From Qipengyuania qiaonensis (GTDB lineage: Bacteria; Pseudomonadota; Alphaproteobacteria; Sphingomonadales; Sphingomonadaceae): DNA of 64,000 bases. The notes under the pieces were generated by a model. That model saw only the letters and a program-made list of their open reading frames with translations. It was not told the origin of the DNA and did not search any database. This document shows, one piece after another, positions 48,146 to 54,586 of the stretch. Where the stretch lies: NCBI RefSeq assembly GCF_019711515.1, contig NZ_JAIGNO010000001.1, positions 434,001-498,000 of the forward strand, given 5' to 3'. The translations under genes and the position numbers were made by a program. Numbering within the stretch: position 1 is the first letter of the stretch; every line of letters starts with the position of its first letter.

Positions 48146-51100
48146 TCAACTATAATAGTCTTGCAACGAACGCACTTCAAGCTGATCCGGTGAAACCTCT
48201 GCTATCGCCTGTGCAACGGCCAGCGATGCGGCGGCAGTGGTGTAGTAGGGAAGCTTCTTTTCCAGCGCCGCTTCGCGGATGGATTTGCTGTCGAGCAGCG
48301 ACTGCCAGCCTTCGGTGGTGTTGAAGATCAGCTGCACATCGCCATCGATAATCGCATCGACGATATGCGGGCGACCTTCGGCAACCTTGTTGACTGGCTC
48401 CACGGCAAGGCCCTGTTCTGCAAGGTAGCGCTGCGTTCCGCCGGTAGCGATCACGCGAAAGCCCTTTTCGAGCAGCGTCCGCACCGCAGGCAGGATCAGC
48501 GGCTTGTCGGTATCCTTTACCGAAACGAACAGCGTACCCGATTGCGGCGGCTTCATCCCTGCGCCCAGCTGCGATTTCAGGAAGGCGGCAGCGAAACCGC
48601 GATCGATCCCCATGACCTCGCCAGTCGATTTCATTTCGGGCGACAGCACCGGGTCGGCACCCGGGAAGCGCGCGAAGGGAAATACCGCCTCCTTCACCGC
48701 CATATGGTTCGGATTGAGATCGAAGGGCTCGAACGTGTGCAGGCCCTCGCCCGCCATGACGCGCGCGGCGACCTTGGCGATCGGGCGTCCGATGGCCTTG
48801 GCAACGAAGGGCACGGTGCGGCTCGCGCGCGGGTTGACCTCGATCAGGTAGACCTCGCCTTCCTTCACCGCGAACTGCACGTTCATCAGTCCGCGCACCT
48901 GCAGTGCCTTGGCCAGTTCGGTGGCCTGACGTTCCATCTCGGTGACGATCTCCGGCGGGAGGCTGTAGGGCGGCAGGGTGCAGGCGCTATCGCCCGAATG
49001 GACGCCAGCTTCCTCGATATGCTGCATCACGCCCGCAATGCGCACCTCGAACCCGTCCGAGACGACATCTACATCGCATTCGATCGCATCGCGCAGATAC
49101 TGGTCTACCAGCACCGGGCTGTCGCCCGACACGTTGACCGCGGTGTTGATATAATCGTCGAGCTGCGCCTCGCTGTCGACGATTTCCATCGCCCGTCCGC
49201 CCAACACGTAACTGGGGCGCAGCAGCACCGGATAACCGATGCGCGCGGCGACCGCGGCGGCTTCGTCACGGCTCTTGGCGATACCGTTCATCGGCTGCAT
49301 CAGCTTCAGCTTGTTGACAAGTTTAGCAAAGCGTTCGCGGTCTTCGGCCAGATCGATCGCATCCGGGCTGGTGCCGAGGATCGGGATGCCTTCCCGCTCC
49401 AGCGCGGCGGCCAGCTTCAGCGGCGTCTGCCCGCCGAACTGGACGATGGTGCCGACCACCTCGCCCTTCGACATTTCGACACGCATGATCTCCAGCACGT
49501 CTTCCTCCGTCAGCGGCTCGAAATAGAGGCGATCGGAGGTATCGTAGTCGGTCGAAACGGTTTCCGGGTTGCAATTGACCATTATCGTTTCGAACCCGGC
49601 TTCGGCCAGTGCGAAACAGGCGTGGACGCAGCAATAGTCGAACTCGATGCCCTGCCCGATCCGGTTCGGGCCGCCGCCGAGGATGACGATCTTCTTGCGA
49701 TCGCTCGGAGCGGCCTCGTCTTCGGGCTCGCCGAAGCTCGGAGCTTCGTAAGTCGAATACATATAGGGCGTGATCGCCTCGAATTCGGCGGCGCAGCTGT
49801 CGATCCGCTTGTAGACCGGATACACGCCCAGCTTGCGGCGCAGATCGCGCACTTCCTGCTCGCTCGTCGCGCCCGCCATGGCACGCAATGCGTCGTGCAG
49901 CAGGCCCGACCGCTTGGCCTGCGTTTCACCCAGCCCGCCCGCAACTCCGACCGACCGCACAGCCAAAGTGGCGAGGCGCCTGTCCGAAAAGCCCATCGCC
50001 TTCAGGCGGCGCATTTCGGCGGCTTCGTTGGGCAAGCCATTATGCGCGATCATCTTTTCTTCATAGATGATTGCCTCGATCTGCCGCAGAAACCAGGGAT
50101 CGAAACCCGTGATCTTTGCGATTTCCTCGACCGTGAAGTTCTCACGAAAGGCTTGTGCAATCTTGAGGATACGGTCGGGAGTGCGCTTGGAGAGCGAAGC
50201 GGTCACGACTTCGCGGCTGAGGCCCTCGAACTCGGTAATGCGGTTGAACCCGTCGAGCCCGGTTTCCAGACCGCGCAGCGCCTTCTGCATCGATTCCGCG
50301 AAACAGCGGCCAATGGCCATGACCTCGCCGACCGATTTCATCGCGGTCGACAGTTCGTTCTTCGATCCCTTGAACTTCTCGAAGGCGAAGCGCGGGATCT
50401 TGGTCACGACATAATCGATGGTCGGCTCGAAACTGGCAGGCGTCGCACCGGTGATTTCGTTCTGGATCTCGTCGAGCGTGTAGCCCACGGCCAGCTTGGC
50501 CGCGACGCGCGCGATAGGGAAGCCGGTGGCCTTGGACGCCAGCGCGGATGAGCGCGAAACGCGCGGGTTCATCTCGATCACGATCAGGCGGCCGGTCTTC
50601 GGATCGACTGCGAACTGTACGTTCGAACCGCCTGTTTCCACGCCGATTTCGCGCAGCACCTCGATGCTGGCGGTGCGCATGATCTGGTATTCCTTGTCGG
50701 TCAGCGTCAGCGCCGGGGCGACCGTAATGGAATCGCCCGTATGCACGCCCATCGGATCGACATTCTCGATCGAACAGATGATGATGCAATTGTCCTTGCG
50801 GTCGCGCACCACCTCCATCTCGTATTCTTTCCAGCCAAGGAGCGATTCCTCGATCAGGACTTCGGTGGTGGGCGATGCGTCCAGACCTTCGCGGACGATC
50901 TTGTCGAATTCCGCCTTGTTATAGGCGATGCCGCCACCCGTGCCGCCCAGCGTGAAGCTGGGGCGGATGATTGCGGGCAGGCCCGTGGTTTCGAGCACCC
51001 TGAACGCCTCGTCCACCGTATTCGCCACGCCGCTGCGCGCGCTTTCGAGGCCAATCTTGTCCATCGCTTCGCGGAACCGCTGGCGGTTCTCGGCCTTGTC

Positions 51101-51469
51101 GATGGCATCGGCATTGGCCCCGATCATGGTGACGCCGAACTTCTCCAGCACACCCTGATTGGCGAGGTCCAGCGCGCAGTTCAGCGCCGTCTGCCCGCCC
51201 ATTGTCGGCAGCACTGCATCGGGCCGTTCCTTCTCGATGATCTTGGCGACGATCTCAGGGGTAATCGGCTCGACATAGGTCGCATCGGCCATTTCCGGAT
51301 CGGTCATGATCGTGGCGGGGTTGGAGTTGACCAGGATGACCCGGTACCCCTCCTCCTTCAGCGCCTTGATCGCCTGCGTGCCCGAATAGTCGAACTCGCA
51401 GGCCTGGCCGATGATGATCGGGCCGGCGCCGATGACGAGGATCGAGGAGATGTCTGTACGTTTGGGCAT
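48146..51469 (-). CDS. carB: Carbamoyl-phosphate synthase large subunit
   Basis: 1107 residues, two fused ATP-grasp halves, supplying carbamoyl phosphate for pyrimidine and arginine synthesis. The first half starts with [17 protein letters not shown] and MGGQTALNC; the second with [18 protein letters not shown]; the C-terminal allosteric MGS-like domain follows near residue 955 ([15 protein letters not shown]). Its start ATG overlaps the stop of the preceding secreted-protein gene (TGATG). carA is 1.8 kb upstream on the same strand with three genes between. Confidence 0.97.
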
Positions 51470-52125
51470 CAGAGGGGGATTTCCACGAGAGTTTCAAGAG
51501 TGGGCGCATTCTGCGCCAGCGGCGAGGCGGGCGGCGGCAGGACAACGGTGAAATCGGTATGCATCCGCGCGAGGCGGCGATAGTCGACTTTGGTCACCCC
51601 GCTGCGGCGCGGGAAGACGCAGTTGCGGCGGATCGAGACGATATCGTCGCCCGTGCGCACCGCGATGTAGGTCAGCACTTCATAGCGCAAGGGGCCATTG
51701 CCGCGCATGGTGACATCGAGCTGGCGCACCTGGTCTCCATCCTGCGCCTCGCGCTCGATCTCGGTAAGGCCGCGGGTAGAGAGGCGAGACACCTGCGCTT
51801 CGTGAACATTTCCGAGCGCGAAAAGCGCTGCGGAAAAAGGCGACCAGCCCGCTGCAGCACGGCAGTCCATCCGCCCGGCGATCGGCCCAGCGGAGGTCTC
51901 GTACTGGATCGGCCGCCAGAAGGTGGCGATGACCGTGCCGTCGACGCCCTCGAGCTGATCGAGCCCGCCATCGCCGGTGAAGGTAACGCCGGGGGTGAGC
52001 TGGACGCCTTCCGTCGCGGCCGGTTGTGCGGCCAACGGAAATGAAATCACTGCAAGGACGGATGCAAATACACCCTTGCAAAACGCCGCCTCCCTAAACC
52101 ACGGCAAGAAGAATTTGGCAGACAC
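51469..52125 (-). CDS. Unknown secreted protein upstream of carB
   Basis: 218 residues with a Sec-like signal ([18 protein letters not shown]) and a beta-rich mature part ([23 protein letters not shown]..., here quoted to 20: [20 protein letters not shown]). No family recognised. The GTG at 52125 is a guess; the ribosome binding site is weak and the frame is open further into the repeat region. The end overlaps carB by one base. Confidence 0.55.
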
Positions 52126-52143
52126 GCGACGGCTAGCTACGCA

Positions 52144-52184
52144 AAGCCCCTTCCCTTGAGGGAAGGGGTTGGGGATGGGTGTAC
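52144..52184 (+). repeat. REP-like repeat, copy 1
   Basis: 41 bases identical to 52541-52581. A short hairpin (CCCCTTCCC/GGGAAGGGG) is followed by a G-rich tail (TTGGGGATGGGTG). It lies immediately upstream of the DUF559 gene. Confidence 0.85.
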
Positions 52185-52188
52185 AACG

Positions 52189-52539
52189 TTGGCGGAAAAA
52201 CGACTGACCGGCGCAGCGCGTAAACTGCGAAACAACATGACGGATGCCGAACAGCGCCTCTGGTCTCACCTGCGCGCTCGCCAGCTCTGCGGCGTCAAAT
52301 TCACCCGTCAGTTCCCTATCGGCGGATACATCGTCGACTTCGCCTGCCGTTCCCTGCGCCTCGCCATCGAATGCGACGGCGGCCAGCACACCCCCGAAAC
52401 CGACACTGCGCGCACCGTAGCCATCGAAGCCCACGGTTATCGCGTCATCCGTTTCTGGAACCACGACATCTTCGAAAACCCCGATGGCGTACTTGAAACA
52501 ATCGCCGCCGAAATCGCCCTCGCCCGAAACCAACGCTGA
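52189..52539 (+). CDS. DUF559 nuclease-like protein, between repeats
   Basis: 116 residues from TTG 52189. The DUF559 pattern is complete: MTDAEQRLW with E21, the RQFPIGGYIVDFA segment (D50), ECDGGQH (61-67) and VIRFWNHDI. This family resembles the Vsr endonuclease fold (PD-(D/E)xK-like), so a DNA nickase or REP-processing role is plausible but unproven. It runs opposite to the car genes, and identical repeats flank it on both sides, which suggests it moved in with them. Confidence 0.82.
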   Translation: MAEKRLTGAARKLRNNMTDAEQRLWSHLRARQLCGVKFTRQFPIGGYIVDFACRSLRLAIECDGGQHTPETDTARTVAIEAHGYRVIRFWNHDIFENPDGVLETIAAEIALARNQR

Positions 52540-52540
52540 C

Positions 52541-52581
52541 AAGCCCCTTCCCTTGAGGGAAGGGGTTGGGGATGGGTGTAC
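52541..52581 (+). repeat. REP-like repeat, copy 2
   Basis: Identical to copy 1 over 41 bases, same direction, starting right after the DUF559 stop. Confidence 0.85.
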
Positions 52582-52617
52582 GACTGCCGAGATTCCGTGC
52601 CTGGCCATCACCGCCGA

Positions 52618-52652
52618 ACCCCCATCCCCAACCCTTCCCCAAGGGGAAGGGA
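52618..52652 (-). repeat. REP-like repeat, inverted diverged copy
   Basis: The same hairpin plus G-rich tail, here on the reverse strand with changes (TTCCCCTTGGGGAAGGG core). With copies 1 and 2 it frames the DUF559 gene. Confidence 0.75.
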
Positions 52653-52690
52653 GTTTGCGAGGATCCAGGAGGTGGCTGTGCGTTTGGGCA

Positions 52691-53263
52691 TTAAATTTTA
52701 CCTGCGATCCAAAGTGTCACTAGTATACTTGCGATACCGACAAGGACTCCTACCCAGCCAGCCCATGAAAGTTTTGCATTAGGTACAGATTTGCGGTCGC
52801 TCTGAACGTTATTCACGGGTGAGAAATTGTTCACGATACTAATTGGCGAACTGGGTGCTTGTTCGTTTGGTTGCGAGCGGTTTTCTTCCTTCTCCCATGT
52901 GAACCATTTCCAGCCATCGGGTAATGGCAAATCCTCGTTCGGATCCACATCAGAAAAAATCTCCCTCAGGTCAGGTGTGACCCGTAGTGAGGTCGCTCCA
53001 ATGATCGAAAGCACCTCTTCGTAAGCGTCACCGTATGAGTCGCGACGCAATCTGGCGCTCAATGGTGTTCCAGTCCGATAAATTTTTGCAAAGCCCTTCT
53101 TTTGCCAGTGTATAAAAGCGTCGTTCAGCAGATCGGGCGGAATTTTCGCGTTATATCTTTCGTTCAGTTCCTTCACCGGCTGATATCTATTCGAGCCCGT
53201 GACGTGCTCAAGCAGGAGAATAAACAGCGCGTTATCTCGATACTTTTGGGTGTCGGTTTTCAC
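52691..53263 (-). CDS. Unknown orphan protein with C-terminal membrane anchor
   Basis: 190 residues. Residues about 10-90 look like a winged-helix-type domain (LNERYNAKIPPDLLNDAF, ARLRRDSYGDAYEEVLSIIG); a Pro/Asn/Ser-rich linker follows (PISIVNNFSPVNN), and residues 167-187 form one membrane helix (WAGWVGVLVGIASILVTLW). The gene is visibly AT-richer than its neighbours, and its GTG overlaps the carA stop (GTGA). Not a family I recognise. Signs of transfer: base composition, neighbouring repeats and no relation to pyrimidine genes. Confidence 0.7.
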   Translation of the reverse strand: MKTDTQKYRDNALFILLLEHVTGSNRYQPVKELNERYNAKIPPDLLNDAFIHWQKKGFAKIYRTGTPLSARLRRDSYGDAYEEVLSIIGATSLRVTPDLREIFSDVDPNEDLPLPDGWKWFTWEKEENRSQPNEQAPSSPISIVNNFSPVNNVQSDRKSVPNAKLSWAGWVGVLVGIASILVTLWIAGKI

Positions 53264-54438
53264 CCCAACATCCCCACGAACTTTTCGAACAGATAGAAGC
53301 TGTCCTGCGGGCCAGGGCTCGCCTCAGGGTGGTATTGTACGCCGAAGGCCTTCTTGCCCTTGATCGAAATGCCGCAATTCGTCCCATCAAACAGCGAAAC
53401 GTGGGTCTGCTCCACATCATCCGGCAGCGTCTCGCCATCGACCGCGAAGCCGTGGTTCATGCTGGTGATCTCGACGAGGCCCTCGCTTGCGCCCCAGCCC
53501 TCGCCCACACGCTGGACGGGATGGTTGGCGCCGCGGTGACCTTGGAACATCTTGGCGGTTTTCGCGCCCGCCGCGATGCCGAGCATCTGATGCCCCAGAC
53601 AGATGCCGAACAGGGGTGTTTCGTTCTCGATCAAGCGTCTGATTAACGGAACCGCGTACACTCCGGTGGCCGCCGGATCGCCCGGTCCGTTCGACAGGAA
53701 CACGCCATCCGGCTCCAGCGCCATGACCTCTTCGAACGAGGTTCTTGCGGGCACTACCGTCACCTTGGCCCCCGCTTTCACGAGGTTGCGGAAGATATTG
53801 TCCTTGGCGCCGTAATCCAACGCCACGACATGTGGCTTGTTGGCATTGCCCTCGCCATATCCAAAGCCGAGCTGCCAGTGGCCGCCGGTCCAGCTTTCCT
53901 GCCCTTCCCGCGTCACCCCCGGCACGAGGTCCAGCCCTTCAAGTCCGCTCCACTCGGAAGCCCGCTTTTTCAAGGCCTTGAGATCGAATTCACCCTGCGG
54001 ACTATGCGCGATCACGGCATTGGGCGCGCCGTTCAACCGGATGCGGCGGGTCAGCGCGCGGGTGTCGATACCCGACAGCCCGATCTTGCCATGCGCCACG
54101 CACCATTCGACGAATTCGTTCTGCGCGCGGAAATTCGAATGCGGCGTAATCTCCTGCCTCACCACCAGTCCGACGGCACCCAGACCACGGCTTTCGTGGT
54201 CTTCTTCGTTCGCGCCAACATTGCCGATATGCGGGAAGGTGAAGGTGACAATCTGGCTGTCATAGGACGGATCGGTCATCACTTCCTGATAGCCGGTCAT
54301 CGCGGTGTTGAAGCAGACTTCGCCCACCGCATTGCCGCTGGCACCGAAGCCCTTGCCCCAGATGACGGTGCCGTCGCCGAACACGAGGACTCCCGTCGCG
54401 CCTTTGGGTTGCGCGTGCGAAATTGCGGACAGGGCCAT
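53260..54438 (-). CDS. carA: Carbamoyl-phosphate synthase small subunit
   Basis: 392 residues: N-terminal small-subunit domain (GVLVFGDGTVIWGKGFGA, GEVCFNTAMTGYQEV) and a class I glutamine amidotransferase with the nucleophile in GICLGHQMLG and the His/Glu pair FGVQYHPEASPGP. Supplies ammonia to CarB. ATG 54438 fits; the frame is open further up. Its stop overlaps the orphan gene. Confidence 0.96.
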   Translation of the reverse strand: MALSAISHAQPKGATGVLVFGDGTVIWGKGFGASGNAVGEVCFNTAMTGYQEVMTDPSYDSQIVTFTFPHIGNVGANEEDHESRGLGAVGLVVRQEITPHSNFRAQNEFVEWCVAHGKIGLSGIDTRALTRRIRLNGAPNAVIAHSPQGEFDLKALKKRASEWSGLEGLDLVPGVTREGQESWTGGHWQLGFGYGEGNANKPHVVALDYGAKDNIFRNLVKAGAKVTVVPARTSFEEVMALEPDGVFLSNGPGDPAATGVYAVPLIRRLIENETPLFGICLGHQMLGIAAGAKTAKMFQGHRGANHPVQRVGEGWGASEGLVEITSMNHGFAVDGETLPDDVEQTHVSLFDGTNCGISIKGKKAFGVQYHPEASPGPQDSFYLFEKFVGMLG

Positions 54439-54586
54439 GGGCGCTCCGGGTAAAAGGTTTCCAGCGATGTGTGCTAAGTCCCAGCCGCTAGGGACCTGTG
54501 CGATTCCCGTCAAGCGGAACACTTGGCATATCGGTGCACTGTTCTAAATGGACTGCCGAAACAGTCTCCAACCATCGGGAATGCCA

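Follow-up and report, generated by a model that had tools for sequence, protein, structure and literature searches.

DUF559 genes for predicted Vsr-like nucleases are paired with palindromic repeats at the carA-carB junction of Qipengyuania qiaonensis and in other bacteria

Background

In the RAYT/REPIN systems, palindromes bearing a GTAG tag flank the gene of their enzyme, an HUH Y1 transposase, and the dispersed form of the repeat is a gene-less inverted pair. Homing endonucleases of the EDxHD (Vsr-type) group, such as I-Bth0305I, reside at conserved genes. The CGTC REPs and the Rickettsia palindromic elements are alphaproteobacterial palindromes that, according to excerpts of Di Nocera et al. 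(2013, PMC3733652), form dimers, lie in some cases within coding frames and have no known dedicated transposase; as stated there, no transposase was found for this class of palindromes. The triplex-type motifs of E. coli (TM_ECO/PIT) consist of a C-run, a G-run and a third G-run arm, and some of them form inverted pairs. Table 1 of Holder et al. (2015, PMC4666352) gives 23 motifs at 18 sites in MG1655, and the excerpted text of that paper states that mobility genes were never found around triplex motifs and that an earlier study had reported such motifs to be without promoter or terminator activity.

As for the DUF559 proteins, an excerpt of PMC1189080 places YcjD in the PD-(D/E)XK superfamily and reports that the YcjD profile detects Vsr, and a published study names a Caulobacter DUF559 protein as responsible for SOS induction in cells without ScmA methylation. 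Neither the open-access matches listed nor the excerpts contained a link of DUF559 to palindromes. Here we describe a DUF559 gene that lies between palindromic repeats at the carA-carB junction of Q. qiaonensis, and compare it with related loci.

Results

In the window (the whole 64-kb stretch of DNA that was analysed), a DUF559 (PF04480) gene for a predicted nuclease of 116 aa occupies positions 52189..52539 on the + strand, with TTG at 52189 as its likely start. It lies between carA (53260..54522) and carB, encoding the carbamoyl-phosphate synthase large subunit (48146..51469), both on the - strand and both named from reading of their proteins. Two small ORFs share that strand. ORF1, between the element and carB (51469..52080, start approximate), gave no Pfam match and has a homologue adjoining carB in genome G032; ORF2, of 190 aa (52691..53263), gave no Pfam or NCBIfam match and is separated from the repeats by a degenerate remnant of the carB start on the - strand, which was read by eye and has approximate limits (~52655..52692). 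A 41-nt palindromic repeat lies upstream of the DUF559 gene (copy 1, 52144..52184, +) and again, as a direct repeat identical at 41/41 nt, downstream of it (copy 2, 52541..52581, +). The layout of copy 1 is C4T2C3, loop, G3A2G4, loop and a mirror third arm G4ATG3. Copy 3 (52609..52657, -) is inverted and diverged, being 72% complementary to copy 2, with which it forms an inverted pair of ~117 nt. The identical direct repeats, the diverged inverted copy and the orientation of the gene against its neighbours had all been described in a sequence-only reading of this DNA, and each was confirmed at these positions, the gene being antiparallel to carA, carB and both ORFs. In three related genomes (G005, G035 and G037), too, it is copy 3 that bounds the element towards carA, so the third repeat looks like a component of the unit.

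The core GGGAAGGGGTTGGGGATGGG occurred three times in the window at up to 3 mismatches, and none of 100 shuffles contained any. At the same stringency, a search of all 33 contigs of the genome (3.39 Mb) gave CCCTTGAGGGAAGGGGTTGGGG as the two direct copies only. Since the core is absent elsewhere in the genome at this level, the repeat is not a common REP; it is private to the carA-carB locus. Five DUF559 matches are present in this genome, the window gene and L004 to L007. Both L004 (between recN and ligA) and L005 lie between inverted copies of a palindrome unlike that of the window, and no such inverted pair was found around L006 or L007. L006 belongs to the conserved DUF559 class described below, and a dimer of another palindrome, beginning with CGTC, lies ~150-240 nt from its domain. 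The weak match L007 may share a position at the end of cysS with the Rhizobiales genes L234 and L272, beside which the cysS end was identified by reading.

The window protein matched the DUF559 profile with an E-value of 2.4e-39 and 134 bits (cut-off 20.6). At E ≤0.01, Pfam gave DUF559 and MTES_1575 only, and no HUH Y1 transposase family, which agrees with the earlier proposal that the enzyme is of a different type from RAYT. The conserved positions E21, D50, E61, D63 and H67, which would be catalytic, are intact. The structure predicted for the protein (pLDDT 88.6) matched NGO0050 (3hrl, E 6.6e-9), I-Bth0305I (3r3p, E 9.4e-5) and, weakly, Vsr (1vsr, E 0.063), the best match of known function being the homing endonuclease I-Bth0305I. 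The model points to a putative nuclease of the PD-(D/E)XK type, with a predicted Vsr-like fold and an EDxHD-like set of residues.

The association was then measured in 60 genomes of the genus, and DUF559 matches were divided by Pfam score. The intact class comprised 54 matches scoring 79 bits or more, with 0-4 in each genome (the match G039 C19 has an internal stop), and the conserved class ~59 matches of 46-63 bits in 57/60 genomes (manual count), 38 members of which were examined as a control. Flanks of 350 nt, shorter at contig ends, were used for both classes. E21, D50, E61 and H67 are kept in all 54 genes of the intact class and D63 in 53/54, whereas E61 and H67 are each kept in 1/38 of the conserved class. 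A palindrome with arms of at least 7 nt, no more than 130 nt upstream of the domain, was found at 50/54 intact genes versus 1/38 of the conserved class. A left-right pair of matching flanks with a score of at least 15 was obtained for 44/54 intact genes, in contrast to 0/38 in the conserved class and 8/1202 control placements. A score of 13 is too loose, 85/1202 control placements passing it, and hence 15 was applied wherever a control exists. The flank pair was missed at score 15 in 10/54 genes; at score 13 there were 8 misses, among them six site-A genes, whose class-A palindrome lies on the 5' side only. Pairing with palindromes is nearly confined to the DUF559 form with intact putative catalytic positions. 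Flanking of the gene by a common REP through chance was ruled out, as the repeat is confined to its locus and the conserved class is nearly palindrome-free. The sequence-only reading had suggested that a REP-like unit could be mobilised, copied or guarded by a DUF559 enzyme, and had named two results that would speak against it. Neither was obtained, since the repeat is not common in this genome and DUF559 homologues elsewhere do have palindromes at their flanks. The suggestion is thus supported in part, for the tie between unit and gene.

The conserved class (L036, L060-L096) has mostly lost E61 and H67 and looks domesticated. In G021 (L024) and G040 (L044), an intact DUF559 gene lies near a degenerate member of this class.

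The repeats were also described by a three-arm rule, consisting of a pyrimidine arm, a purine arm and a mirrored purine arm, with A->T allowed in the third arm and a second loop of at most 45 nt. All three window repeats fit this motif. It was present upstream of 41/54 intact genes, versus 1/38 of the conserved class and 1/1306 other tiles of those loci, and downstream of 33/54 versus 0/38, counts that describe rather than test, because the rule was derived from the same data. A partial second set of 80 named loci, 14 of them close relatives of the window and some of their genomes shared with the genus set, gave the upstream motif in 25/80 versus 17/1554 tiles. When only a short second loop was considered, a third arm was found in 21/45 genes having a palindrome. 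The upstream rule failed in 7/7 site-D genes, in which the stem is interrupted.

Clustering of the proteins at 50% identity agrees closely but not strictly with the chromosomal sites, whose gene names are mostly from reading proteins. Cluster 4 is confined to site B, cluster 6 to site A and cluster 7 to site E (carA-carB), and two clusters share site F. A strict scheme giving each subfamily its own palindrome and its own site was dropped on a recount, in which clusters 1, 2, 3, 5 and 8 were each located at two to four sites. The link between palindrome type and protein cluster is loose: the class-C type is common to clusters 1 and 2 and some of cluster 3, which has two types, L033 has the type of site C, and the types of L031 and L053 are the same. 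Shared 8-mers between flanks were rejected as proof, as 0.62-0.70 of the pairs with unlike proteins also share at least 10. The class-A palindrome was found in 11/60 genomes, exactly the 11 carriers of the gene, with 14/15 copies at the gene, and the class-D palindrome in 7/7 carriers and 3/53 others, with copies away from the gene in 4/7 carriers. Because the flanking copies bring some circularity into this comparison of copies with genes, the extra copies carry the most information, and class A has almost none. Specificity of palindrome for subfamily holds in part.

When presence was placed on a weakly supported carB tree, 8, 8, 6, 5, 5 and 3 changes were obtained for sites A-F. The divergence of DUF559 followed that of carB at sites A (rho 0.64), B (rho 0.58) and D (rho 0.62), and no correlation was seen at C, E and F. 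Since most subfamilies are single-site and divergence follows carB at A, B and D, much of the history is vertical descent with loss, and horizontal spread as the sole cause was ruled out by the same tracking of carB. The G041/G005 pair at site B, with 98% versus 93% in carB, suggests some transfer. In G026 the site-C gene (L032) is inverted relative to the genes around it, an outcome expected of recombination between inverted repeats.

Palindromes were also found away from the gene. The class-C pattern was present in 21/60 genomes (a control pattern in 0), partly as inverted pairs without DUF559 between them. Nineteen hand-picked places with such gene-less class-C repeats were read; all of them start like the class-C unit, 13 have both arms, 17-87 nt apart, and 6 have one arm. 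The gene-less inverted pairs have the same ends as the class-C unit, and G028 contains three class-C pairs in the absence of the class-C gene. In-frame inserts were identified in hosts confirmed by Pfam as TrmD (G000, G058 and G040) and TruB (G057 and G035). In G040 a ValRS of 1110 aa carries a DUF559 domain inside it, in frame (also Pfam-confirmed), and the valS arrangement of G006 is as in G040 but cut by the contig end. This valS spot gave split or half matches in 11 genomes, and the 10 inserts inspected (three as protein only) were 2 DUF559 units, 7 palindrome pairs and 1 unrelated palindrome (G056); 30 other genomes were empty and G055 and G047 had short odd stretches, in a tally that excludes 4 loci, G000 among them. 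The valS palindrome of G021 is the 22-nt core that lies beside the DUF559 gene of that same genome.

The single valS spot (L188-L195, L055 and L034) takes several palindrome families in frame, together with whole DUF559 units. The valS gene of G040 (L055) has an additional in-frame palindrome (RHSRAGGNP...DPRLRGDD), which begins CGTCATTCCCGC, like CGTC REPs.

At the car locus, empty sites in relatives, which the earlier reading had suggested looking for, were located in G010, G011, G012 and G030, with carA-carB junctions of 5 nt or less. In G037 a canonical carB start of 95 nt has been left stranded on the far side of the element, and a different start is used by the working carB; the carB remnants of G005 and the window are shorter, and G032 has a remnant without an adjoining DUF559 gene. 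The carB start DIQSI was found in 3/5 carriers versus 0/52 non-carriers, with DIKSI in the non-carrier G002 and the G032 remnant as a counter-case. The locus is consistent with arrival of the element together with its own version of the target-gene start, by homing or by ordinary recombination. Classical target-site duplication was rejected for the carB-start duplications of 40-100 nt, since in G037 the two copies agree along their last ~42 nt but not in their first half (by eye), and the G032 case has no adjoining DUF559 gene; these duplications are a possible trace of co-conversion. In G008 a different sequence precedes ligA and a ligA remnant stays beside the DUF559 gene, an arrangement that may be due to ordinary allele replacement.

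The gap between carA and carB (51469-53263 in the window) is a hotspot of small genes, measuring 0-1331 nt in 53/57 genomes giving a value, with ORFs that differ.

Beyond the genus, a flank pair with a score of at least 13, which 85/1202 genus controls also pass, was obtained for 36/80 named relatives and missed in 44/80. In a Rhizobiales cluster, a repeat beginning GGGGGAGATNNCCGGCAGG was present upstream of 39/42 DUF559 genes, the nearest copy being in the same orientation in 38 of these 39, 71-154 nt before the domain; two of the three genes without it have less than 175 nt of upstream DNA. A search of 24 Mesorhizobium genomes, represented by 25 hand-picked loci, gave 53-267 copies of the repeat per genome in 24/24, and two genomes in which copies were mapped contain many inverted pairs ~123 nt apart. 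One orthologous site has the inverted pair in 13/17 loci, a fragment in one and none in three. Locus L224 is a clean empty site in which the target DNA is not duplicated, a result that insertion and precise loss would give alike. Among 29 phylum loci, one per genome, taken without a control set from 49 genomes with a DUF559 match, 19/29 had a flank pair with a score of at least 15 and 23/29 an upstream palindrome. Seven hand-picked loci from a plasmid collection (Neisseria, two Azospirillum, Deinococcus, Picosynechococcus, E. coli and Sphingomonas) showed G/C-run palindromes in 7/7, on both sides in 5/7 (by eye). The pairing of DUF559 with palindromes is general, recurring in Rhizobiales, other Pseudomonadota, Deinococcus and a cyanobacterium, and beside E. 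coli ycjD. In Sphingomonas parapaucimobilis (L333) the DUF559 gene is flanked by yqeY and dnaG and is near carA.

In E. coli, triplex-type motif no. 9 (1,351,239-1,351,204) is located 167 nt past the stop of the DUF559 gene ycjD (1,351,407-1,351,760), with two degenerate copies between them (by eye). The probability that a motif site falls 200 nt or less from a single named gene is ~0.003, ycjD having been chosen before the table was consulted and the 200-nt limit after. A strict pattern of the motif was found in 13/150 phylum genomes. A strong DUF559 match (E <1e-10) was present in 8/13 of these versus 28/137 others (Fisher p 0.003, uncorrected for phylogeny, manual count), and 5/13 lack one.

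Discussion

These loci resemble the RAYT/REPIN systems in that palindromes flank the enzyme gene, gene-less inverted pairs are the dispersed form (seen elsewhere in the genomes for the class-C and Mesorhizobium families, not for the repeat of the window) and one apparent insertion left no target duplication. They differ in the enzyme, whose predicted fold is of the PD-(D/E)XK type and not that of an HUH Y1 transposase, and in the window repeats, in which no GTAG tag was read and a third mirror arm is present. With neither the defining enzyme nor the GTAG tag, the element does not belong to RAYT/REPIN. Its catalytic-domain fold and its residence at conserved genes are shared with I-Bth0305I, but here no intron or intein was seen, the gene is bounded by palindromes, and gene-less palindrome pairs occur. 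The CGTC REPs and the Rickettsia elements are similar in the features excerpted above, but no CGTC tag was read in the window repeats. The three-arm layout is the same as that of the TM_ECO/PIT motifs, from which several DUF559 subfamilies differ in a long second loop, often a hairpin, and in other stem sequences.

We lean slightly towards a small selfish or maintained element, similar to RAYT/REPIN or to homing systems, in which the gene of a Vsr-type endonuclease is bounded by copies of its own palindrome and repair of breaks spreads the pairs. The DUF559 enzyme would recognise, bind and cut its own palindrome or the target, the palindrome probably being folded as a hairpin or triplex when single-stranded, and break repair would copy the pair of palindromes, alone or together with the gene, to new places or back into the fixed site. 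Such an action would be like that of a RAYT/REPIN partnership or a free-standing homing endonuclease, performed by a different nuclease. In the window, the element is fixed at the carA-carB junction and its repeat is not dispersed. That the palindromes are mobilised, copied or guarded by the enzyme we infer from the gene-less pairs, the in-frame inserts and the one clean empty site, all of them belonging to repeat families other than that of the window.

Several observations could also be read as the work of a free-standing homing endonuclease, which would cut a conserved gene (the carB start, the ligA start or valS) and be copied in by repair together with the start of its target, the palindromes serving as landing pads or arising as by-products. 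I-Bth0305I as the best functionally known fold match, the residence of most subfamilies at one conserved gene, the DIQSI-recoded carB start of 3/5 carriers, the old carB or ligA starts adjoining the element and the patchy presence, with 3-8 changes per site on the weakly supported tree, are all in keeping with this. We nevertheless regard it as rather unlikely, as it leaves unexplained the palindrome differences between subfamilies, the gene-less pairs in trmD and truB and the dispersed copies of Mesorhizobium; moreover, the carB remnant of G032 has no DUF559 gene next to it, and the ligA remnant of G008 accompanies a different sequence before ligA. A simpler role for the palindromes, as expression signals of the DUF559 gene (terminators, attenuators or mRNA stabilisers), would account for the fact that upstream palindromes, where found, lie within ~155 nt of the domain start, and in the Enterobacter 638 study CCCTCTCCCXX(X)GGGAGAGGG was presumed by the authors to act as a terminator. 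This role is improbable, however, given that the same palindrome types occur as gene-less pairs and within coding frames, that one genome has three DUF559 genes with three different palindromes, and that the earlier study reported in the excerpts of Holder et al. (PMC4666352) found neither promoter nor terminator activity.

The protein might instead serve the host in repair, as a nuclease trimming palindromes or triplexes, its gene lying among them as a substrate-linked self-limitation. The Vsr-like predicted fold, the intact conserved positions and the Caulobacter DUF559 protein, tied to a DNA damage response, would suit such a guard. Genes that are patchy in distribution and reach four copies in a genome, however, look selfish rather than housekeeping, and the differences in palindromes between subfamilies would be left unexplained, which makes this the kind of function that we consider very improbable.

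Returning to the element spread by break repair, a broader version can be put forward tentatively, and with somewhat more doubt than conviction. DUF559 proteins may be the dedicated, HUH-independent enzymes of widespread three-arm palindromes, including the E. coli TM/PIT motifs through YcjD; each enzyme would recognise the hairpin or triplex of its own palindrome, and break repair would spread gene-less pairs, which are tolerated in frame in essential genes.

Conclusions

Should DUF559 be the partner enzyme, a class of orphan repeats known for a long time would gain an enzyme that can be tested, and E. coli K-12 offers one, encoded by ycjD. A domain of unknown function would, if this is true, gain a biology, and the arrangement of REP plus enzyme would have arisen on an unrelated nuclease fold.
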